Shown piece by piece: positions 7,007 through 20,924 of a stretch of DNA of 64,000 nt (positions are counted from its first letter, which is position 1; every line of letters begins with the position of its first letter). Under the pieces are notes generated by a model. It searched no databases. It saw only the letters and a list, made by a program, of their open reading frames with translations, and was not told the origin of the DNA. The stretch is from Rhodospirillales bacterium (GTDB taxonomy: Bacteria; Pseudomonadota; Alphaproteobacteria; TMED109). The DNA is taken from positions 1-64,000 of the forward strand of contig JAPPED010000022.1 of NCBI GenBank assembly GCA_028824295.1, read 5' to 3'. A program made the position numbers and the translations under genes.

Positions 7007-8357
7007 ACGAGGCCTCCGTCAACCTCTCGCAATATGCGGGCTCCGGCCGTGGATATTACATTCGGAGAAGTCGTGTTCCCTGACAGCATTATGACGATGC
7101 CGCCGCAAACGCATACGGTTGGACCGGACAGGCATGCCGATGGTTATCTTGCCAAGGGCACCGGCGCAAACAGACCCGTGACGCTGTCGTCACCCCACCG
7201 GGCCGCCGGAGTTCAAGGTGACTCGGTCGGTAAATCGCCGACTCAACTTCTCGGCGTTGCCAGCGGCCGTCATGGACCGCCTTCATCGTCCGTACCGACA
7301 CCCGTACGAGATCGCGAGTACGCGGCCCGACCGCCGCAACTGACCTCGTGCCCACGTCCCTCCCGAGGCCGTCCGCGACCGTCAGACCTGAGCCACCGAC
7401 ATCCGCAATACGCCCCAACCATAAACCCGGCTCACCCTGTCGCTCATCACGGTCCAGCAGACGTGATGCAACGATCTGTTCGCGGCCACAGGGTTCCAAG
7501 TAACATACTGAATCATTAATCCTACGGAGGCTGGCGTCCGTATCACTGAGACCATCGCCAATGGCCTTCCGCGACTGCCGTCACGGCCAGGAACATGTCT
7601 CATCTGATGCGCTGCGCGGTCCTATGGCGAGAACCGATCCTCGCGCGGGCACTGCACCGGCGGGTACCTGCGCGAGATGGCGCCGGTCGCCATTGTTGTC
7701 ACGGAAAGACTCGGATGTTTGCTTCCGCCGACCGGCACCGGAAGACAGGATGGCGGGCTGGGCAATCGAGGAATACACAGGGTGCGGGAACGAGTCCTCT
7801 CGCCTGGACGGCAGGAACCTTGGCTCGTTCATTGGCGCCGGCGTCGCTATCGTTCGTCACGCCACGGCACCGCCGTGATCCGCACCGCGGAGGCGGCGGC
7901 AATTCCGATGAAGCGGGATCGAATTGACCTCTTGAAGCCGCCTTCAGCCAGACCCCTTGAAACCGTGCACAGTTCGCAATTCCGAACCAATAAAGTATCG
8001 CTACTGCCAACTTGTGGATGGCAAGGTACGTACGGCGTGGCACACTTGATTCTTTGACAATCCGGAAATACATACTAAATTGCGCGAAATGCAAATAAAT
8101 TTATTTTCATTCCGGTCTTTCACGACTCGAACTTATGGGACTGTACCGTCCCCACTTGCCGGGTCCTCGAGCAATGTTCATGCGGCATCCATCGCAATTC
8201 AGGGGAACAAAGCCGCACCGGTCAAGAGTCGGCCCAGTGGTCGCTCGGGCTCCACAGAAGCCGACGACCGCCTGAGAGGTAGACCTCGGCTTCGTCGACG
8301 GTTGTCGGTTTGGCGCGGTCGCCAGCCCTCGAACCAAGGCGGTCTGGAGAAACCAAC
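7007..8357. other. 1.35-kb region without a convincing gene
   Basis: No open frame here has a recognisable domain, a good ribosome binding site and plausible codon usage together. The left end must hold the promoter of the minus-strand BMP operon. The right part, about 7970-8110, is clearly more AT-rich than the surroundings and contains a promoter-like pair. I find no tRNA, riboswitch or repeat array. It may be decayed coding DNA, or it may carry an undetected small RNA. Confidence 0.45.
8054..8081 (+). promoter_or_regulatory. candidate sigma-70 promoter in an AT-rich patch
   Basis: A perfect -35 box TTGACA is followed after 16 nt by TAAATT as -10. It lies in the only AT-rich patch of the gap and points towards the helix-turn-helix gene 277 nt downstream. 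The long leader could instead mean that a small RNA starts here. Confidence 0.4.
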
Positions 8358-8972
8358 ATGATTCAGGAACACCTGACCATCCGCGGCTTTCGGACGACGA
8401 TGCGGCGTATCGTTTCGGCGGTCGTGGGTGAGCTTCGGCAGATCGCACAAGAAGATGGCTATACTAGGGAGTGGCGGCCCGCACGCGACCGCAGGATTGA
8501 AATGCTCAACGCCTACCAGCAAGGCGCGTCTCTCCGGGCCGTAGGCGAACAGTTCGGGGTGTCGGGGTCACGCGTGCAGCAGATCCTGAAGTCGATGCCT
8601 GACTACCAAGCTGCCAGAGACGCCGCGAGATCCCATCGCAGGGGAACGTCGGCGGGAACGCGGCCGGCACAGCTCCAGTCGCCGCAGAGGACCTCGAATT
8701 CACGCGACGTGCGGCGATCGTGGAAAGCAGCGTCTGATGGCGAGGACGTCTTCGAGCGCCTCTATCAGATGCGCGCTGCCGGTAAGAAATGGAAGGATCT
8801 CGCGGAAGCAGTCGGTCGACCACCGGATCGGAGCAATGCGCACTCCACCATGCTGCACATGAAGCGGCAGGCAAAGGCAAAGGGCCGTCCGTGGCCGATC
8901 AAGCAGGCCCATGGTTCCGTGCAGCCGTCGCGCGCGCCCGGCATGCCCCCCGAGGTCGATTCAGCGGGATAA
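8358..8972 (+). CDS. helix-turn-helix domain protein of unknown function
   Basis: A 204-aa basic protein that I cannot place in a named family. Residues around RRIEMLNAYQQGASLRAVGE and QFGVSGSRVQQILKSM look like a sigma-70 region-4 or MarR/TrfB-like helix-turn-helix. A second, weaker HTH-like stretch (LYQMRAAGKKWKDLAEAVG) lies towards the C-terminus, separated by an Arg/Ser/Thr-rich linker. No enzyme motif is visible. The ATG start is preferred over an in-frame start 48 nt upstream because GGAG sits 7-10 nt before it. It stands alone between a large gap and the alcohol dehydrogenase. A DNA-binding role is inferred. Confidence 0.55.
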   Translation: MIQEHLTIRGFRTTMRRIVSAVVGELRQIAQEDGYTREWRPARDRRIEMLNAYQQGASLRAVGEQFGVSGSRVQQILKSMPDYQAARDAARSHRRGTSAGTRPAQLQSPQRTSNSRDVRRSWKAASDGEDVFERLYQMRAAGKKWKDLAEAVGRPPDRSNAHSTMLHMKRQAKAKGRPWPIKQAHGSVQPSRAPGMPPEVDSAG

Positions 8973-9121
8973 GCCGGACAGGCCGGCAATTGGCGCAACA
9001 CAGGACGGCATCCGCGGCTCCAGTAGTTCGAGGCGCGTCCCCGCCCCAGAGCAGTTGCGACGAACCCGGGCATCTGCCAGTACATGACCCGCCCTGACAA
9101 GTAACTGGGAGAGAGACCGTC

Positions 9122-10177
9122 GTGCGTGGACTGTATTTCCTCGGGAACCGCGAACTGGACTTGCGCGAAATTCCCGACCCTACTCCCGGCCCTGGCGAGG
9201 TCGTGCTCAAGATCAAAGCGTCGGGAATGTGCGGCAGTGATCTCAAGTTCTATCGGCCGCCACCAGGGGAAGCGCAACGTGCACTCGGTCTAGGGGACGA
9301 TGTGCCGCCAATCATTGGCGGCCACGAACCCTGCGGCGTGGTTGCTGAGCGGGGGGCCGGGGTAACGCCGGAAGCCGCACCGATCGATGCACGGGTCATG
9401 AATCACCACTATGCCGGGTGCGGCCTGTGCGACTCCTGCCGGGTTGGCTGGACGCAGATGTGTGAAACCGGGCCCGTGAAGGTCTACGGCGTGACGGCCG
9501 ACGGTGCACACGCCGACTACATCGTGGTACCGGCCATCAGCCTCGTTCCATTGCCTGAAGCACTCAGCTTTGCCGAGGGTTCTGCGATCGCCTGCGGTAC
9601 CGGAACCGCCTACGGCGCGCTGTGCCGCCTGCCCCGACTTGGGGGCTCGACCCTTGCGGTATTCGGCCTCGGACCGGTCGGTCTCAGCGCCGCACTGCTC
9701 GGCGAAGCCATGGGCGCGCGGGTCATCGCCGTCGAAGTGGAGTCGGAACGGCTGGCGCTCGCCACTGAGTTCGGCGCTGACGCGACTGTCGACGCCGCTT
9801 CCACTGACCCGGTCGAGGCCCTGATGGACCTTACCCACGGCCGAGGGGTGGACTTGGCCATCGATTGCAGCGCTTCCTCCGCGGCTCGCTCGGCGGCAGT
9901 GCGTTCGACGGGGCGATGGGGCACCGTATGTTTTGTCGGTGAAGGTGGCGACGTCACGATCGACGTCAGCCGCGACATGCTCCGCAAGCAACTCACCATC
10001 ATTGGCTCCTGGACGTTCAACCCGACCGGACAGGCCGAGTGCGCCCGCTTCATCGCTGACCGCAAGATTCCGTTGGAGAAGATTTTCACCCATCGGTACA
10101 CGCTTGATGAAGCCGTGGATGCCTATCGCTTGTTCGATACGCAGACCACGGGCAAAGGCGTGTTCCTGTTCGACTGA
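9122..10177 (+). CDS. zinc-dependent alcohol dehydrogenase family protein
   Basis: A 351-aa medium-chain dehydrogenase/reductase. Catalytic zinc ligands Cys37 (GMCGSD) and His68-Glu69 (GGHEPCG) are present. The structural zinc site is complete at Cys100, Cys103, Cys106 and Cys114. The Rossmann motif is GLGPVGLSAALLGEAMGA. The enzyme should oxidise a secondary or polyol-type alcohol with NAD(P)+, but the substrate is unknown. The start is GTG, with a purine-rich GGGAGAGAG 6-14 nt upstream. The gene converges on an RraA-family gene with only a hairpin between them. Confidence 0.9.
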   Translation: MRGLYFLGNRELDLREIPDPTPGPGEVVLKIKASGMCGSDLKFYRPPPGEAQRALGLGDDVPPIIGGHEPCGVVAERGAGVTPEAAPIDARVMNHHYAGCGLCDSCRVGWTQMCETGPVKVYGVTADGAHADYIVVPAISLVPLPEALSFAEGSAIACGTGTAYGALCRLPRLGGSTLAVFGLGPVGLSAALLGEAMGARVIAVEVESERLALATEFGADATVDAASTDPVEALMDLTHGRGVDLAIDCSASSAARSAAVRSTGRWGTVCFVGEGGDVTIDVSRDMLRKQLTIIGSWTFNPTGQAECARFIADRKIPLEKIFTHRYTLDEAVDAYRLFDTQTTGKGVFLFD

Positions 10178-10188
10178 GCCCGCAACGC

Positions 10189-10205
10189 CGACGGCCCCGC
10201 CGTCG
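10189..10205. terminator. hairpin between convergent genes
   Basis: A perfect 7-bp stem, CGACGGC / GCCGTCG, with a 3-nt CCC loop lies in the 48-bp gap between the stop codons of the alcohol dehydrogenase and the RraA-family gene. It lacks a U-tract. A bidirectional transcription barrier is plausible from position alone. Confidence 0.4.
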
Positions 10206-10225
10206 CTCCCCGCGGCGGCAGGCGT

Positions 10226-10927
10226 TCAGTGGATTTCCCTCGCGTCGGCCATGGCGCGCCGGAGCTGCGCGATATCGAATTCGGGCTGGCGTGCGCACGC
10301 CAGAATCACGGCCTCGCGCCGAGTCAACAGGTCGACGGCCGCTGGGAGCTCCTTCACTGCCTCCGGTGGAATGACGACGGCCCCATGACGGTCGGCATGA
10401 ATGATGGCGTCATGCTCGACCCTCATTCCGTACACTTCGACAGGGCAGCCGGTCTCCACGACGTGTACATGTGCATGGCTGGGACCCACCATGCCGGCCA
10501 GTAACTGAAAGCCGGGAGCGCAGGCATCCAGGTCACGGATGGATCCGTTCGTGACGACTCCCTGTACCCCGAGGCCCTTGTGCACAGCCGTGTTCACCTC
10601 GCCCCAGAAGGCACCAAACCCGGGATTGGGGTCGATATCTTGAATCACCGCAACCGCCGGCCGCACGCCATCCGCAACGTACTCGTAGTACGCGATCCTG
10701 CCGCGTTGCTGCTGTTCAGCCGGCGCCTCGGACGGGACGCTACAACGGATCGTGGCCGTGCGCGCCCAGCCGACGATTGGCTTGAGGTCGGGATCCGCAC
10801 AAACCATGGGGCGAACGGTGAAGCCGGTCGCCCGCCGGTCCGGTACCACCATCTCAAGCGCGTTGCAAATTGTGGGTGTGTCCCAAGCCGCAAGGTGCTC
10901 AAGATCCCGGGCAGTCACGTGTGTCAT
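10226..10927 (-). CDS. RraA / HMG-aldolase family protein
   Basis: A 233-aa protein of the RraA-like fold. This family includes 4-hydroxy-4-methyl-2-oxoglutarate (HMG) / oxaloacetate aldolases and the RNase E inhibitor RraA. The aldolase-type constellation is visible: GAFWGEVN, then VVTNGSIRDLDAC carrying the Arg-Asp pair, and IHADRHGAVVIP near the C-terminus. Retention of the Gly-Glu and Arg-Asp motifs favours a metal-dependent lyase over a pure regulator. Its neighbour is an alcohol dehydrogenase on the opposite strand, so shared catabolism is possible but not shown. Confidence 0.8.
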   Translation of the reverse strand: MTHVTARDLEHLAAWDTPTICNALEMVVPDRRATGFTVRPMVCADPDLKPIVGWARTATIRCSVPSEAPAEQQQRGRIAYYEYVADGVRPAVAVIQDIDPNPGFGAFWGEVNTAVHKGLGVQGVVTNGSIRDLDACAPGFQLLAGMVGPSHAHVHVVETGCPVEVYGMRVEHDAIIHADRHGAVVIPPEAVKELPAAVDLLTRREAVILACARQPEFDIAQLRRAMADAREIH

Positions 10928-11241
10928 GAGAATCCCTCAAGTAGTTGGCGCTACCGGCGTGCCGCCTCGTGCCCTCCTGAGCATTGCTCCTGGCGTCAGG
11001 CATGCGACACGCGGAACGTGCGGCTGCGACAGGGTAACCGAGTCATCGTGCACCCCGTAGCACCTGCCTGACCGAAACTGCACGACCGCCTGCCGACCGG
11101 CGAACACCGTCTGCGTGGCGGCTGGCGCGGCACCAGCTTCCCGGTATCCGTAATGGCGGCGAACGCAGCGCCGCCTGCCGCAGCGTCGAATTGACAGCCC
11201 TTCTAGTATCATCGTTTCCGCAAGAACCTCCGAGGGAGACC
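10928..11241. other. intergenic region between the divergent RraA-family gene and hfq
   Basis: This 314-bp stretch separates divergently transcribed genes and should carry both promoters. TTGACA occurs at 11191-11196, but the best -10-like hexamer, TATCAT, is only 10 nt further on, so I do not call a promoter. No other element is evident. Confidence 0.4.
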
Positions 11242-11517
11242 ATGGCCGCCCAGCATCGAGGAGCGCTACAGAACTCTTTCCTGAATCGGCTCCGGAAGTC
11301 GCGTACGCAAACGACGGTTCACCTCATGAACGGTGTACGTCTTCGCGGAACCGTTACGGCATTTGACGAATTCTGCATCTGGCTTTCAACGTCGGGTAAC
11401 CAGCAGCTGGTATTCAAGCACGCGATCTCCACGATTGTTCCGAGCAAGCCGATCAGCCTCGGAGAACCGGGCGAGCCGGAGGCGCGCGGGCCCGAGCCGG
11501 CATCAACGGACGAGTGA
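11242..11517 (+). CDS. hfq: RNA chaperone Hfq
   Basis: A 91-aa Sm-like protein that forms hexameric rings and pairs small RNAs with mRNAs. The Sm1 motif (VHLMNGVRLRGTVTAFDEF) and the Sm2 motif (LVFKHAISTIVP) are both intact, including the KHA proximal-site residues. The tail after about residue 70 is short, acidic and Pro/Glu-rich. GAGGGAG precedes the ATG, which is preferred over an upstream in-frame start because it gives the usual Hfq length. It overlaps hflX by 4 nt, the conserved hfq-hflX arrangement of proteobacteria. Confidence 0.97.
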   Translation: MAAQHRGALQNSFLNRLRKSRTQTTVHLMNGVRLRGTVTAFDEFCIWLSTSGNQQLVFKHAISTIVPSKPISLGEPGEPEARGPEPASTDE

Positions 11518-12824
11518 CTTCAGCACCGGTGGCCGAGGTTCCGGTTTGGGTTGTTCACCCGGTTGTCAGGGGAAACGACCCGCAGCTGCGTACACAGGCC
11601 AACCGGCTCGCTGAAGCCTGTTCACTGGCCGATTCCATTGGTCTTCGGGTCAAGCGTGCAGAGCAGTTCAGAGTCCGGCAGCCTCGGCCCGCCACACTGC
11701 TCGGACCCGGCGTCCTGGAATCCCTCCGGGCGGACATCGCTGGTGCCGCGGAAGCGCCACACCTGATCCTGTTCAATGTCGATCTGACGCCGGTCCAGCA
11801 GCGCAACCTGGAAGATCTGCTGCAAACGAAGGTCCTGGACCGTACCTCGCTCATCCTCGAAATCTTCGGTGCCCGTGCAGCCACCCGAGAGGGGCGTCTG
11901 CAGGTGGAACTCGCACATCTGGAATGGCAGCGGAGCCGGCTGGTCCGATCCTGGACTCACTTGGAGCGCCAGCGCGGCGGTTTCGGGTTTCTCGGCGGTC
12001 CGGGCGAATCGCAGATCGAGCTCGATCGTCGACTGATCACTGAACGCGTCATCCGGATCCGGAAAGAGCTTGAAGACGTGCGGCGACGACGGGGCCTTCA
12101 CCGACAGCGTCGCGACCACCCGACCGTAGCGTTGGTCGGCTACGCCAACGCCGGTAAGTCCACGCTGTTCAGTCGCCTCACCGGACAATCCACCGACGCC
12201 CGGAACCTGCCGTTCACCACGCTGGATCCGCTGATGCGGGCACGGGCGCTTCCTTCCGGCCGCACCGTGGTCTTTTCCGATACCGTGGGCTTCGTCTCCG
12301 ATCTTCCGACCCTGCTGATTGCGGCGTTTCGTGCCACCCTCGAAGAGGCGGTGCATGCCGACCTCCTGGTTCACGTCCGCGACATCACCCACCCGGAAAC
12401 GGCGGCGCAGCGGCGCGACGTCATCAGCGTGCTGTCCACGCTGGGAGCACTTGCCGATGGCGCCGACCCGCAACTTGAAGTTCTGAACAAGATCGACCAG
12501 ATGGCCGACGACGACATACAGCTGCTGCAAGCGCAGCTGCCGGCCGCGATTCCTGCATCAGGCCTGCTCGGTTCCGGTGTCACGGAGCTGCTGGAGGCCG
12601 TCGACCGCTGTCTTGGTCAAACCCGAAGCGAGTTCGATGTCGAACTCTCGCTGGCTGACACTTCCACACTTGCATGGCTGTACAGGCGAGGCGCAGTGGT
12701 ACGTCAGCACGCTGATGCCACCTCTCTTCACGTGCGAGTGGCGCTGGACCCGGCCGACCGAGGACGTCTCAACGCACGGTTGGCAAAGGCGTCGCCGACC
12801 GATCCGTCCAGGTTGCAAACCTGA
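11514..12824 (+). CDS. hflX: ribosome-associated GTPase HflX
   Basis: A 436-aa GTPase that splits or rescues stalled ribosomes. The N-terminal HflX domain ends in the glycine-rich linker GGFGFLGGPGESQIELDRR. The GTPase domain has G1 GYANAGKST (residues 209-217), G2 in the NLPFTTLDP segment, G3 DTVGF and G4 NKID. The GTG start overlaps the hfq stop, so translation is probably coupled. An expected C-terminal extension is present. All GTP-binding motifs look intact. Confidence 0.96.
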   Translation: MTSAPVAEVPVWVVHPVVRGNDPQLRTQANRLAEACSLADSIGLRVKRAEQFRVRQPRPATLLGPGVLESLRADIAGAAEAPHLILFNVDLTPVQQRNLEDLLQTKVLDRTSLILEIFGARAATREGRLQVELAHLEWQRSRLVRSWTHLERQRGGFGFLGGPGESQIELDRRLITERVIRIRKELEDVRRRRGLHRQRRDHPTVALVGYANAGKSTLFSRLTGQSTDARNLPFTTLDPLMRARALPSGRTVVFSDTVGFVSDLPTLLIAAFRATLEEAVHADLLVHVRDITHPETAAQRRDVISVLSTLGALADGADPQLEVLNKIDQMADDDIQLLQAQLPAAIPASGLLGSGVTELLEAVDRCLGQTRSEFDVELSLADTSTLAWLYRRGAVVRQHADATSLHVRVALDPADRGRLNARLAKASPTDPSRLQT

Positions 12825-12883
12825 AATCCGGCCCGTCACCCGCTCACGCGGTTCGGGGGCACCAAACCTCTTTCCCCAAGCCC

Positions 12884-12912
12884 CTTGACATCGGGGGTTC
12901 GCATCCCCACTT
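12884..12912 (+). promoter_or_regulatory. heat-shock (sigma-32-like) promoter of groESL
   Basis: CCCCTTGACA followed after a 14-nt spacer by CCCCACTT matches the sigma-32 pattern (CTTGAA, 13-15 nt, CCCCATNT) better than a housekeeping -10. It sits 19 nt before the CIRCE operator and drives groES-groEL. The same TTGACA could also serve as a housekeeping -35. Confidence 0.6.
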
Positions 12913-12930
12913 CTACCCCTAACGGATTTT

Positions 12931-12957
12931 TTGGCACTCTCAGTGTTAGAGTGCCAA
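12931..12957 (+). promoter_or_regulatory. CIRCE operator (HrcA binding site)
   Basis: A perfect inverted repeat TTGGCACTC-N9-GAGTGCCAA differs from the classical CIRCE consensus TTAGCACTC-N9-GAGTGCTAA only by a symmetrical A-to-G / T-to-C change. It lies in the groES leader just downstream of the promoter, the usual place for HrcA repression. Confidence 0.93.
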
Positions 12958-13029
12958 TCCCGTTTTATGGGCGCCTCACGGACGCGCCGTACGCCCAGCA
13001 CCCCTTTCCAATCAGAGAGGCATGGAAGC

Positions 13030-13317
13030 ATGAAATTCAGGCCGTTGCATGACCGCGTCATGGTCCAGCGCGAAGACGACGACGAGCGCTCGCCAGGCGG
13101 CATCATCATTCCGGACACCGCGAAGGAGAAGCCCATGAAGGGCAGGGTCATCGCGACTGGTTCGGGCATCCGGAGCGAAGATGGCAAGATCACGCCCCTG
13201 GATGTGCAAGAGGGCGACACCGTCCTGATCGGCAAGTGGTCGGGCACTGAAGTCAAGATGGATGGCGAGGAATACGTCATCGTCAAAGAGTCCGACATCA
13301 TGGGAGTCCTGGCCTAG
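13030..13317 (+). CDS. groES: co-chaperonin GroES
   Basis: A 95-aa co-chaperonin that caps the GroEL chamber. It begins [15 protein letters not shown] and contains the mobile-loop region ([15 protein letters not shown]) and the C-terminal [10 protein letters not shown]. The length is standard. AGAGAGG precedes the ATG; upstream in-frame starts lie within the CIRCE element and are rejected. It is cotranscribed with groEL, 39 nt downstream, under CIRCE and heat-shock promoter control. Confidence 0.98.
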
Positions 13318-15003
<1,686 letters not shown>

Positions 15004-17323: not shown

Positions 17324-18040
17324 TTGCAACTGCGTGAGTTCCGAGCCCTCAGCTTCGACTGCTATGGCACTCTAATCGATTGGGAAACCGGGATCTGGGA
17401 CGCTCTCAGCCCCCTGCGACGGGCCGGCTTGTCCGACCGATCAGCTGCTCTTGCAGCCTTCGCAAGACACGAAAGCGCTGTCCAGAAGGCGGAACCAGGG
17501 GCCAGTTATCCGGACGTGCTTGCCCGAGTGCACCAGCGCCTGTCGGAAGAGTTCGATTTTCCTCCCGACCCGGAACTCGATGTCCGGTTCGGCGGATCGG
17601 TTCAGGATTGGCCAGCGTTTCCCGATTCGGGGGCTGCGCTTCAATACCTCGGCCAGCACTTCCGGTTGATCATTCTTTCCAACGTGAGCAGGGCTGCTTT
17701 CACATCGAGCGAGCGCCGTCTCGTAGCCCGTTTCGACGCTGTCTACACGGCCGAGGACATCAAGAGTTACAAACCCGATCCGCGAAACTTCCGCTATCTG
17801 ATCGAGCACTGCGAACAAGACTTCGGAATCGACAAGGGAGAACTCCTGCACGTGGCGCAAAGTCTGTACCACGATCACGTGCCGGCACGCGCCGCCGGGC
17901 TCGCCACCGCTTGGATCGACCGCCAGCAAGGACGGCCCGGCGCGACCAGGCCGGTGACCGACCGCCCCGACGTCAGCTTCGTCTTTCCTGATCTGGCTGC
18001 GCTCGCCGCGTCCCACCGGGCGGAACACGATTCTGCCTAG
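17324..18040 (+). CDS. HAD-superfamily hydrolase, haloacid dehalogenase type II-like
   Basis: A 238-aa hydrolase with nucleophile Asp12 in FDCYGTLIDWE, motif II in ILSNVS, and the motif III lysine in IKSYKPDPRNF. The motif HVAQSLYHDHVPARAAGL is typical of the haloacid dehalogenase-like branch. It may dephosphorylate a small metabolite or dehalogenate a 2-haloacid; the sequence does not decide. The start codon is TTG, chosen because the nucleophile motif begins only 10 residues later. Its stop overlaps the converging lipocalin-like gene by 4 nt. Confidence 0.85.
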   Translation: MQLREFRALSFDCYGTLIDWETGIWDALSPLRRAGLSDRSAALAAFARHESAVQKAEPGASYPDVLARVHQRLSEEFDFPPDPELDVRFGGSVQDWPAFPDSGAALQYLGQHFRLIILSNVSRAAFTSSERRLVARFDAVYTAEDIKSYKPDPRNFRYLIEHCEQDFGIDKGELLHVAQSLYHDHVPARAAGLATAWIDRQQGRPGATRPVTDRPDVSFVFPDLAALAASHRAEHDSA

Positions 18041-18453
18041 GGACGCCGCCACAAGATGATGACACGGTGGTCGGGGCCCGCCTGCGGATGCGGGCCGCTG
18101 AACTTCAAAACCCCGTTCTCCCAAACGATGTCGCGTTCAAGAGTGGAACCTATCAGCCTTGGATCGTGCGATAGATGGATCGTATGGTGCACCGTGGAAC
18201 CAGAAAGGGTCCACGAACCTTGATAGGCAAAGAACCCGGCCCACGCCCGCGCCGCCGCCGCATCCGGCACCGGATTCTCCGGAAGCGACAGGTCGGAGCC
18301 GGCCAGCATCGCTATTACGGTGCGGTCGGCCCCGTAGTAGATCAAGCCCCGGGGGTTCTCTCCGAGGAGCGGAGTCCGCTCGCCATCCGGCGCTTCCAAA
18401 TAGGTGTCTACCAAGTCCCAACGGCCCAGCAGGTCACGCTCAACGACGGCCAT
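18037..18453 (-). CDS. lipocalin-like domain protein
   Basis: A 138-aa protein beginning MAVVERDLLGRWDLVDTYLE and ending DHRVIILWRRP. The opening GRWxLV, the central YGADRTVIAML, and the closing ILKFSGP-like strand pattern resemble the small lipocalin-like beta-barrel family found in many proteobacteria. It has no signal peptide, so it is probably cytoplasmic. A TTG four codons upstream is an alternative start, because GGGGAGG lies only 3 nt before the chosen ATG. Function is unknown. Its 5' end faces the anti-sigma kinase gene across a shared regulatory region. Confidence 0.65.
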   Translation of the reverse strand: MAVVERDLLGRWDLVDTYLEAPDGERTPLLGENPRGLIYYGADRTVIAMLAGSDLSLPENPVPDAAAARAWAGFFAYQGSWTLSGSTVHHTIHLSHDPRLIGSTLERDIVWENGVLKFSGPHPQAGPDHRVIILWRRP

Positions 18454-18470
18454 GAACCTCCCCAAAACCC

Positions 18471-18501
18471 GCGAAATCTGCTATAATCGATACGATTTCG
18501 C
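18471..18501. promoter_or_regulatory. perfect inverted repeat surrounding a -10 box (operator candidate)
   Basis: GCGAAATC and GATTTCGC form a perfect 8-bp inverted repeat separated by 15 nt. The spacer contains the extended -10 box TGCTATAAT. It lies between two divergent genes, so a repressor bound here could control one or both. Confidence 0.5.
18479..18487 (+). promoter_or_regulatory. extended -10 promoter of the rsbW-like operon
   Basis: TGCTATAAT gives a perfect -10 hexamer with the TGn extension, about 98 nt before the anti-sigma kinase start. No good -35 is seen at 17 nt, which is common for extended -10 promoters. Confidence 0.5.
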
Positions 18502-18584
18502 AACAGGGCACAACATCCTCCTGGCTGACCTACTCTGGCGCCCATATTGATGGTCTACGCGGCAGTGACGAATCGGAGTTGCAT

Positions 18585-19004
18585 ATGGGGCAGTCACTGA
18601 AACTCGACATTCCGGTCCAAATCAGCGCGCTCAGTGATGTGACCACCAAGGTTGAAGAGTTTTGTGACGCGGCCGATATTCCGATGGCAAGCGCCTTCAA
18701 GGTCAATCTCGTGATTCAGGAACTGGTCACCAACAGTTTGAATCACGGAGATTTTGGTGACCGGAAGCCGGAAATATCGCTATCAATCAATTGTGACGGC
18801 AGGCAGGTCGAGATGCTGTTCGAAGACAATGCTGCCCCGTTCGACCCCTTCACCGAAACGCCAGCACCTGATCTCAACTCAGATGTCAGTGAACGTTCGA
18901 TCGGCGGTCTCGGAATCCACCTGATCCGGACGTTTTCGGATCAGTCCAGCCACGAGCACGTCGATGGCAAGAACCGGATTCGGCTGATCAGCCCGGTTGA
19001 ATAG
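18585..19004 (+). CDS. RsbW/SpoIIAB-like anti-sigma factor, ATP-binding serine kinase
   Basis: A 139-aa GHKL-type ATPase domain protein. The N-box ELVTNSLNHG begins at residue 46, the G1 segment FEDNAAPFDP is at residues 79-88, and the G2 glycines GGLG are at 107-110, followed by IHLIRTF. In partner-switching systems, such kinases bind a sigma factor or other target and phosphorylate a STAS antagonist; the next gene encodes a STAS protein. The ATG has GGAG 6 nt upstream; a TTG two codons earlier is the alternative. No sigma factor or PP2C phosphatase gene lies nearby, so the target is unknown. Confidence 0.87.
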   Translation: MGQSLKLDIPVQISALSDVTTKVEEFCDAADIPMASAFKVNLVIQELVTNSLNHGDFGDRKPEISLSINCDGRQVEMLFEDNAAPFDPFTETPAPDLNSDVSERSIGGLGIHLIRTFSDQSSHEHVDGKNRIRLISPVE

Positions 19005-19021
19005 CTGATCCCGGAGCCCCC

Positions 19022-19360
19022 GTGCCTTTTTTCGCGGCGGCCAGATCCGGAAAGTTTCTCGTGTTTTCCCTGTCTGGTCGTATCGAAGGTGTGCGTGTGT
19101 CGGAATTCGCGGAACAACTCATGCGGCAAATCGATAGCGGAGAAAACCACATCGTCCTGGACTGTTCCGCGGTTTCCCGCCTTGCATCGCCAGCCAGAAG
19201 AGTGCTCCTCGCGGTGGCCCGCCGGCTGGAATCTCGCGGCGGCCTGTTCCGGGTCGCCGGTTTGCAACCGGCACTGCGAGCGCCCGTCGCGGAACTTCGG
19301 GGGCCGGGCGGCCCCCTGTCCCTCTTCGCGAGTCTTCCCGAGGCGCTGACTTCCCCGTGA
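19022..19360 (+). CDS. STAS-domain protein, putative anti-sigma factor antagonist
   Basis: A 112-aa protein with a STAS-like pattern: strand FLVFSLSGRIEG, helix VSEFAEQLMRQI, strand HIVLDCSAV, then SRLASPARRVLLAVARRLESRGG. Aligned by eye with SpoIIAA, the phosphorylatable serine corresponds to Ser56. The usual Asp before it and the Ser-Gly after it are replaced, giving Ala55-Ser56-Pro57-Ala58, so the site is divergent. The GTG start lies 17 nt after the kinase gene, and its stop overlaps the next gene by 4 nt. It is presumed to be the kinase's partner. Confidence 0.7.
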   Translation: MPFFAAARSGKFLVFSLSGRIEGVRVSEFAEQLMRQIDSGENHIVLDCSAVSRLASPARRVLLAVARRLESRGGLFRVAGLQPALRAPVAELRGPGGPLSLFASLPEALTSP

Positions 19361-20115
19361 CCCAGCCCTACGCGGATTTTCGACCGTTCGAGCACGCCAA
19401 TCCCCGCGGTCGTTTCCCGGCTCTGCTCGTCTGCGATCACGCGGTGAACACGGTACCGGAAGAACTGAGCGACTTGGGTCTGGACGCCAGGGAGCTTGAG
19501 CGGCACATTGGCTGGGACCCCGGGGCCCGAGCCGTAACGTTGGAGCTGGCCGCACTCCTGGATGCACCCGCCTTGCTCGCCGGCTATTCCCGTCTCGTGA
19601 TCGATCCGAACCGGTCGCCGCATTCAGAAACATCGATCCTTGAGAACAGTGACGGCACGATCATTCCAGGGAATATCGGGCTGGATGCAAATGCCCGCCA
19701 CGATCGGATCACTGCCTGTTTCCGGCCCTACCACGATGCCATCGATACGACGCTCGACCGGCTGGGCCCGCGCTGCGCCGCGCTCCTGTGTATCCATACC
19801 TTCACCCCCGCCCTTGCCGGCGACGGTATCGCGCGTCCATGGCACGCATCGATTCTGTGGGGCGGTAATCAAGCACAGTTTGCCGACCGGATCCGCATCG
19901 GACTCGGGCAGGTCACTGGCCTCAAGATTGGCAACAACCAGCCGTACGCCCAAACACCGGAATTCGGATACACGGCCGAAGCCCATGGGGAAGTCCGGGG
20001 ACTGCCGAACCTTCTGATCGAAATCCGCCAGGATCTCCTGGAAGACGCGAACGCCCCACAACAGTGGGCCAACCATCTGGCGGAGGTGCTCGTGGCGGAA
20101 CTGGCGACGGTCTGA
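19357..20115 (+). CDS. N-formylglutamate amidohydrolase family protein
   Basis: A 252-aa zinc hydrolase-like protein of the HutG-type N-formylglutamate amidohydrolase family. Typical elements are LLVCDHAVNTVP near the N-terminus, HIGWDPGARAV, YSRLVIDPNR, CIHTFTP and the late EIRQDLL, which supply the probable metal and carboxylate ligands. No other histidine-degradation gene is near, so a true HutG role is not supported by context. The GTG start overlaps the STAS gene stop, suggesting cotranscription with the kinase/STAS pair. Confidence 0.83.
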   Translation: MTQPYADFRPFEHANPRGRFPALLVCDHAVNTVPEELSDLGLDARELERHIGWDPGARAVTLELAALLDAPALLAGYSRLVIDPNRSPHSETSILENSDGTIIPGNIGLDANARHDRITACFRPYHDAIDTTLDRLGPRCAALLCIHTFTPALAGDGIARPWHASILWGGNQAQFADRIRIGLGQVTGLKIGNNQPYAQTPEFGYTAEAHGEVRGLPNLLIEIRQDLLEDANAPQQWANHLAEVLVAELATV

Positions 20116-20339
20116 GCCTCGGCATCGAATCAGGACCCGCTGTTTCGTCCGCAACAGCCGCCGCCCCGATTGCGAGGCTGCGTGTCGCCACGCACGGGCA
20201 GTTCCCGATTGCGGTGCGAAACCCCGACGGGCGATGCTGCCCCGCTCCGGCCAAGTTGCCCAGACGGCGCGCTTCCGCGTTGCCCGACGTTGCTCGCAAG
20301 CCATATATTGTCGGCGGCAATTCAAGGAGAAGCCCTCTC

Positions 20340-20924
20340 ATGCGCCTGCTTCCCGCCCTGTTAACCGCGCTGCTGGTTTGGCCCGCAGCTGCCGAGGAGT
20401 CCGGCGAGTCGGTGCTCGAAAAGATTCTCGGAAGTGCGGACGCACCGCATGAAATCATCGAGTACGCATCGCTTTCCTGCCCCCACTGCGCCGCCTTCCA
20501 CAACGAATCGTTGCCTGACATCAAGGCCCGTTTCATCGACACGGGACAGGTGCGGCTCGTCTTCCGGGACTTCCCTCTGGATCAGCCGGCCCTGACCGGA
20601 TCCATGCTTGCCCACTGCCAGCCCGACAAGCACTTCTTTCCCGTACTTGAGCAGTTATTTGCGCACCAGACGAAGTGGGCGTTCGCCGAGGCCCCGAAAG
20701 ACGTGCTGAAGGAAATATTTCTTCAGTTTGGAATCAGCGCGGACGATGTGGATGCGTGTTTCGCCGATACCGAAGCGAATCGCGCGCGCCTCAATCGCAT
20801 CCTCAATACCCGCATGGACGGCCAAAACCGGATGCAAGTGGATTCCACGCCGACATTCTTCGTCAACGGGTCGAAGGTGGACGGGCGATTCGACGCCAAT
20901 ACGCTCGCGGAACTGATCGAATAG
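20340..20924 (+). CDS. DsbA family periplasmic thiol-disulfide oxidoreductase
   Basis: A 194-aa exported thioredoxin-fold protein. The signal peptide is MRLLPALLTALLVWPAAA, followed by the mature protein. The active site is CPHC at residues 47-50 (the classical DsbA CPHC), and the cis-proline loop is STPTFFVNG. It probably introduces or shuffles disulfides in the cell envelope, perhaps in c-type cytochrome maturation. AAGGAG lies upstream of the ATG. It stands alone, downstream of the amidohydrolase with a 224-bp gap. Confidence 0.9.
   Translation: MRLLPALLTALLVWPAAAEESGESVLEKILGSADAPHEIIEYASLSCPHCAAFHNESLPDIKARFIDTGQVRLVFRDFPLDQPALTGSMLAHCQPDKHFFPVLEQLFAHQTKWAFAEAPKDVLKEIFLQFGISADDVDACFADTEANRARLNRILNTRMDGQNRMQVDSTPTFFVNGSKVDGRFDANTLAELIE

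Follow-up and report, generated by a model that had tools for sequence, protein, structure and literature searches.

A divergent, genus-specific RsbW/STAS gene pair followed by an amidohydrolase gene in an uncultured alphaproteobacterium

Introduction

A contig stretch of 64,000 nucleotides from a Rhodospirillales bacterium (hereafter, the window) contains a gene for an RsbW-type kinase, a gene for a STAS protein and a gene for an amidohydrolase, one closely after the other. The locus raises the question of whether such a pair, with an unusual sequence around the probable phospho-serine, may still work as a partner switch, and whether the enzyme encoded behind it has any part in the mechanism. 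The nearest studied system is RbaVW of R. capsulatus, described in the accessible text of PMC3999984 as two genes predicted to form an operon, with no gene for a sigma factor in the vicinity and with the phosphatase RbaY encoded at a locus other than rbaVW. The same text reports the interaction of RbaW with RbaV and no cognate sigma factor, and favours RbaV as the output. Given this precedent, partner switches with neither a sigma factor nor a phosphatase linked to them are already known, and the novelty of the window pair seems to be modest: an altered phospho-loop accompanied by what look like co-altered kinase residues.

Organization of the locus

The three genes follow one another in the same orientation on the forward strand (Table 1), with Pfam matches that all exceed the curated cut-offs. 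The kinase frame opens with an ATG, or alternatively with a TTG two codons upstream (18579), and closes with a TAG at 19002-19004; the STAS frame runs from a GTG to a TGA at 19358-19360, and the amidohydrolase frame from a GTG to a stop at 20113-20115. The 4-nt overlap (GTGA) between the STAS and amidohydrolase genes described in the original prediction agrees with these coordinates, whereas the kinase and STAS genes are separated by 17 nt.

Table 1. Features of the locus, in window coordinates
Feature	Position	Strand	Evidence
Lipocalin-like protein (PF13924), divergent neighbour outside the unit	18040..18465	-	Pfam 2e-10
RsbW/SpoIIAB-type GHKL serine kinase, 139 aa	18585..19004	+	Pfam HATPase_c_2 7.7e-18
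Single-domain STAS protein, RsbV/SpoIIAA-like, divergent phospho-loop ASPAR, 112 aa	19022..19360	+	Pfam STAS 4.7e-13
Ser56 codon, probable phospho-serine	19187..19189	+	alignment and model
PF05013 (FGase-superfamily) amidohydrolase, 252 aa	19357..20115	+	Pfam FGase 1.8e-39

A scan of positions 18400-20450 gave a single promoter-like site (20280-20309; 0.4 expected in shuffles), upstream of the next forward-strand gene, which is thioredoxin-like, but none upstream of the three-gene unit and no terminator-like site, so that it is the spacing of the genes that points to an operon; the amidohydrolase is probably co-transcribed with the kinase and the STAS protein. The longest frame of the thioredoxin-like gene starts at 20064, and the ATG at 20340 looks the likelier start. 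Broadened profiles revealed no further kinase, STAS or PP2C among the window ORFs of at least 60 aa. The mean pairwise dN/dS values of 0.07 for the kinase, 0.13 for the STAS protein and 0.11 for the amidohydrolase (21 pairs from seven genomes of the genus) are low, which indicates that these are not chance ORFs and that they are under purifying selection; the neighbouring HAD and lipocalin genes show values of 0.14 and 0.13.

Conservation within and beyond the genus

The proposal of a tight unit holds throughout the genus, where the gene order and the 4-nt overlap are kept in seven of seven genomes and the gap between kinase and STAS genes measures 16-17 nt. The kinase is 90-99% identical in the six other genomes, and the adjacent STAS protein 82-95% identical across the genus. 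The upstream HAD and lipocalin genes and the downstream thioredoxin gene are equally syntenic, however, and gene order within the genus is therefore not evidence of function.

Within a set of 61 genomes of relatives it is present in 12, which are the seven of the genus (about 90% identity or more) and five from other families, where the match is weak (26-35% identity), while none of the 21 genomes from other genera of the family carries it. A survey of the class gave a kinase match at 1e-8 in 61 of 385 genomes, three of them from the genus (best outside it, 2.1e-28), and a survey of the phylum at 1e-20 gave three of 398, own genome included. A GTDB scan with two short kinase patterns, which reaches close relatives only, found six loci, all in MAGs titled Alphaproteobacteria or Rhodospirillales and all carrying the same three genes.

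Around the kinases of the 58 non-genus genomes with a match at 1e-8, two samples were inspected. In 18 wider regions (roughly +-5 kb), seven had a STAS match without a PP2C match, seven had both, two had PP2C only and two had neither, whereas in 26 narrower loci (flanks of ~1.5 kb) STAS was found in 12, PP2C in five, both in three and neither in 12. Outside the genus, the kinase domain that scores best in the class survey (L076, G078:C2:1725044-1725457) occupies the end of a frame of 591 aa and shares the stretch AAPFDPFTE with the window kinase.

The STAS protein and the kinase

The STAS protein was predicted to keep its probable phospho-serine in an unusual Ala-Ser-Pro-Ala context, and the alignments bear this out. 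At the position of S56, 35 of 36 STAS domains from relatives have Ser (these domains, like the 35 kinases considered below, were gathered by similarity to the window pair and are thus not a random sample), and the counterpart of S56 in the entry titled 'Moorella thermoacetica RsbS S58E' is the Ser changed to Glu. S56 is invariant in the seven genomes of the genus, as is the whole of A55-S56-P57; the motif reads ASPA in six and ASPT in one, the full loop being ASPAR in five (the window included), ASPAS in L014 and ASPTR in L016. The typical loop of the relatives is SSAGLR: the residue after the serine is P in the genus and A in 31/36 relatives, the second is A (T in one genus genome) as against G in 35/36, and the third is R (S in one genus genome) as against L in 35/36. 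As the canonical S-[AST]-G-L loop is absent from the window protein, the pair is classed as a divergent relative and not as a canonical member. Judging from its residues, the altered loop may indicate that phosphorylation has been lost or changed.

The best of five AlphaFold2 models of the STAS protein has a mean pLDDT of 90.7 (two of the five were poor, with 53.6 and 39.7) and places S56 as the first residue of a helix spanning 56-71; in Foldseek its best match is 1th8_B, the SpoIIAA chain of a complex with SpoIIAB. Confidence is low for the kinase model (mean pLDDT 70.9, and under 50 in residues 93-97 and 99-108), whose top Foldseek matches are the SpoIIAB chains 1l0o, 1til and 1th8. With the NCBIfam anti-sigma and antagonist models, the RsbW/SpoIIAB equivalogs included, both proteins stayed below the cut-offs (the STAS protein reached at best 34.8 of 53.45 bits, the kinase 30.7 of 135), and in a profile search against solved structures the best kinase matches were chains of blue-light histidine kinases (6.5e-04), with SpoIIAB (6.4e-03) close behind.

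The GHKL motifs had been described as intact, which is slightly generous: the kinase keeps E46 and N50 (the N-box Glu/Asn), D81 (the G1 Asp) and the G2 motif GGLG, but the G1 glycine is replaced by Ala83 (Gly in 29 and Ala in six of 35 relatives). It also has Q45 where 35/35 relatives have D or E, H123 where 34/35 have Tyr, H125 where 34/35 have Arg and I114 where 31/35 have Val, and all five residues are invariant in the seven genomes of the genus; S102 takes the place of a Glu present in 28/35 relatives and is Gly in one genus genome. What sets the window unit apart is the loop, these substitutions in the kinase, the order of the genes and the enzyme encoded behind them, the pair being ordinary in kind and unusual in detail.

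Sigma factors, phosphatases and a second STAS protein

A sigma factor had been noted as absent, in agreement with the search of the genome for sigma factors of the SigB/F/G type, as distinct from ECF factors, where the three matches all lie on contigs other than that of the window and none passes the TIGR02980 cut-off. The reported absence of a PP2C phosphatase is correct for the window but does not extend to the genome: two SpoIIE/PP2C genes occur on contig C15, and two in each of the six other genomes, so that all seven of the genus have them, whereas among 21 genomes from other genera of the family two have one. The C15 cluster (L028, G000:C15:148000-166000, positions 7616-14677), a second one that looks partner-switch-like, contains, together with the two SpoIIE/PP2C genes, of which one has HAMP, a methyltransferase gene, a gene for a GHKL protein that matches DUF6272 below threshold and another for a protein whose STAS match is likewise sub-threshold. 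Since the phosphatases adjoin this GHKL/STAS-like pair, they may serve it instead.

An orphan STAS protein with the canonical loop ISSAGLR is encoded on contig C3 (L027, 7518-7928) and kept in seven of seven genomes of the genus with 94-100% identity, the copy of G003 (L129) showing the canonical loop as well. The matched stretch contains one TGA in three of the seven genomes, which possibly lies upstream of the real start. With this protein as a phmmer query, de novo designed trefoils top the listing, taken here as an artefact of repeated weak matches. By reading of its sequence, the remaining genomic STAS match appears to sit in a SulP-transporter-like protein.

A probable partner switch with components in trans

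The reading that we favour, with moderate confidence, is that of a divergent, genus-specific RsbW/RsbV-type pair working like RbaVW, with phosphatase and target encoded in trans. The kinase would bind the unphosphorylated STAS protein and would phosphorylate it on Ser56, releasing it; a PP2C encoded elsewhere, presumably one of the two C15 SpoIIE proteins, would strip the phosphate, and one of the two proteins in its free form, kinase or STAS, would act on a trans-encoded target, whether a sigma factor or not. That the module may control something other than a sigma factor, as originally suggested, is plausible in the light of RbaVW (accessible text of PMC3999984).

This reading is favoured by Pfam families and predicted folds that fit SpoIIAB/SpoIIAA, by the retention of E46, N50, D81 and GGLG in the kinase and of S56 at the phospho-site and helix start, by the grouping of the STAS protein with its relatives in a FastTree tree (local support 0.91) and by the purifying selection on the three genes. 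Kinase and STAS genes without a PP2C in the region are also common in the class (7/18), two SpoIIE/PP2C genes occur in 7/7 genomes of the genus, SigB/F/G factors over the cut-off are absent from the genome, and RbaVW offers a precedent. Counted against it are the departures in the loop and in the kinase (Q45, A83, H123, H125, S102, I114), the blue-light histidine kinase chains that outrank SpoIIAB by profile, and the lack of a promoter-like site upstream of the unit; moreover, the orphan ISSAGLR protein may be the real substrate, and the C15 phosphatases may serve another pair.

The window pair resembles RbaVW as an alphaproteobacterial RsbW-type kinase with a single-domain STAS protein, without a sigma gene beside it and with PP2C encoded elsewhere. 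Set against the R. capsulatus system as described in the accessible text, the differences are that rbaW overlaps rbaV with its start, whereas in the window the kinase gene comes first and is followed by a gap; that RbaV carries two serines (S56/S57), as against ASPAR; and that RbaY has an N-terminal REC domain, which Pfam finds in neither C15 phosphatase. In addition, the window pair is followed by the amidohydrolase gene. With SpoIIAB/SpoIIAA and RsbW/RsbV of Bacillus it shares the predicted folds, the N-box Glu/Asn and the position of the phospho-Ser, but differs in the altered phospho-loop and in a genome without SigB/F/G factors over the cut-off. From uncultured Alphaproteobacteria, the locus contributes a predicted partner switch that is divergent and has no sigma factor linked to it; should the loop change be real rewiring, the pair would offer a natural test of the residues that a GHKL serine kinase needs around its phospho-serine.

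A less probable reading takes the adjacent STAS protein for a modified or locked constitutive binder, which would set a threshold or form a second branch, and the orphan C3 protein for the real phospho-switch. The changes in loop and kinase could make the adjacent protein such a partner beside a canonical STAS, and the orphan protein has both the canonical ISSAGLR loop and the higher conservation (94-100% as against 82-95% identity). Cases of one kinase with several STAS partners have been described, in the accessible parts of the reports on RsbV1/RsbV2 of Chlamydia (PMC8256260) and on RsfA/RsfB of M. smegmatis (PMC10950880). On the other hand, the invariance of S56 means that the acceptor serine remains in the adjacent protein, and the operon pairing favours the latter as the cognate partner. 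More speculative, and rather unlikely, is a version in which the genus remodelled both sides of the interface (A55-S56-P57 in the STAS protein; Q45, A83, H123 and H125 in the kinase) and the altered or locked adjacent STAS protein rivals the orphan one for a single kinase, a two-STAS, two-phosphatase, sigma-free switch insulated from canonical partners.

An anti-sigma system of the classical kind, with the sigma factor encoded in trans, is likewise a less probable reading; it would be a sub-case of the favoured one and is compatible with it. The predicted fold of the kinase matches anti-sigma F chains and the genome does contain three sigma-factor matches, but none of these reaches the SigB/F/G cut-off, and in R. 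capsulatus, according to the accessible text of PMC3999984, the search for a cognate sigma factor was unsuccessful.

It is improbable that the pair is RsbS/RsbT-like, with a STAS protein that would sequester the kinase until phosphorylation of S56 frees it to activate a PP2C in trans. As in a stressosome, the serine lacks the canonical Gly-Leu after it (the aligned RsbS loops read DSFVTR and DSFIAK), the stretch GLQPA resembles the GIQPA of Listeria RsbS, and in a PDB profile search with the genus alignment the Moorella stressosome STAS chain 2vy9 came first (4.2e-05), ahead of TM1442 (0.0081). The single window sequence, however, has the mycobacterial antagonist 4qtp as its first PDB match, the kinase scores with RsbW/SpoIIAB models, and the matches listed for the kinase include neither an RsbT model nor an RsbT chain. 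In the FastTree tree, built from about 110 columns with partial chains as PDB rows, the window protein sits on a long branch among alphaproteobacterial STAS proteins, in a clade (0.91) that takes in 35 of the 36 domains from relatives, and apart from the only two RsbS chains included, a placement on which RsbS/RsbT membership was rejected as the main reading.

The amidohydrolase

The third gene had been called N-formylglutamate amidohydrolase-like, which is correct at the level of the PF05013 superfamily (136.6 bits for a gathering cut-off of 28.9), but the equivalog model of the N-formylglutamate deformylase HutG, TIGR02017, gives 23.8 bits and has its cut-off at 278.75. The only solved relative found at E 0.01 is Atu2144 (2odf, 7.7e-35), homologous over most of its length, and relatives at 1e-20 occur in 208 of 385 class genomes.

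The functional linkage proposed from the overlap fared worse, and so did co-occurrence in relatives, which was observed within the genus but not outside it in the loci sampled. With the broadened kinase, STAS and PP2C profiles (1e-2; flanks of ~1.5 kb, shorter at contig ends), none of these genes was found beside the amidohydrolase in 42 loci outside the unit, which comprise 27 non-genus loci of the class (the best-scoring ones, from the 208 genomes with a match), nine from other genera of the family and six second copies from the genus. Conversely, no amidohydrolase lies near the non-genus kinases in the 26 narrower loci, screened with the same profiles, or in the 18 wider regions. Beyond these sampled loci, rare links outside the genus are not excluded.

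Literature text searches found nothing joining N-formylglutamate with partner-switching or with a STAS domain and, with matches judged by title, nothing on the gene combination. A functional module of pair and amidohydrolase was rejected on the 42 and 26 loci. As the enzyme is seen with the pair only in the genus, there is little reason to think that the switch controls it, and from its gene context it is probably an operon passenger and not a mechanistic part. Control of the amidohydrolase by direct binding, or its making or destroying the switch signal, is thus the least probable reading, for despite an overlap kept in 7/7 genomes, it is opposed by the sampled loci, by the equal synteny of unrelated neighbours and by the empty literature searches. 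The case calls for caution, as a 4-nt overlap within one genus is a poor ground for functional linkage.

In the class, the PF05013 homologues examined have no partner-switch genes beside them. In 14 of the 27 loci a different ORF cluster (single-linkage BLAST), which we take to be carboxylate-amine ligase-like, recurs next to the amidohydrolase. No second copy was found in the window's own genome at 1e-20 (seven of 13 candidates scored), and each of the six other genomes of the genus has a second, distant one (L164-L169, G001-G006; E 2.5e-36 to 9.5e-44). Finally, the G001 amidohydrolase (L019) has a Lys where the other six genomes have the Glu of LLIEIRQD, which is either a sequencing error or the loss of a conserved residue.
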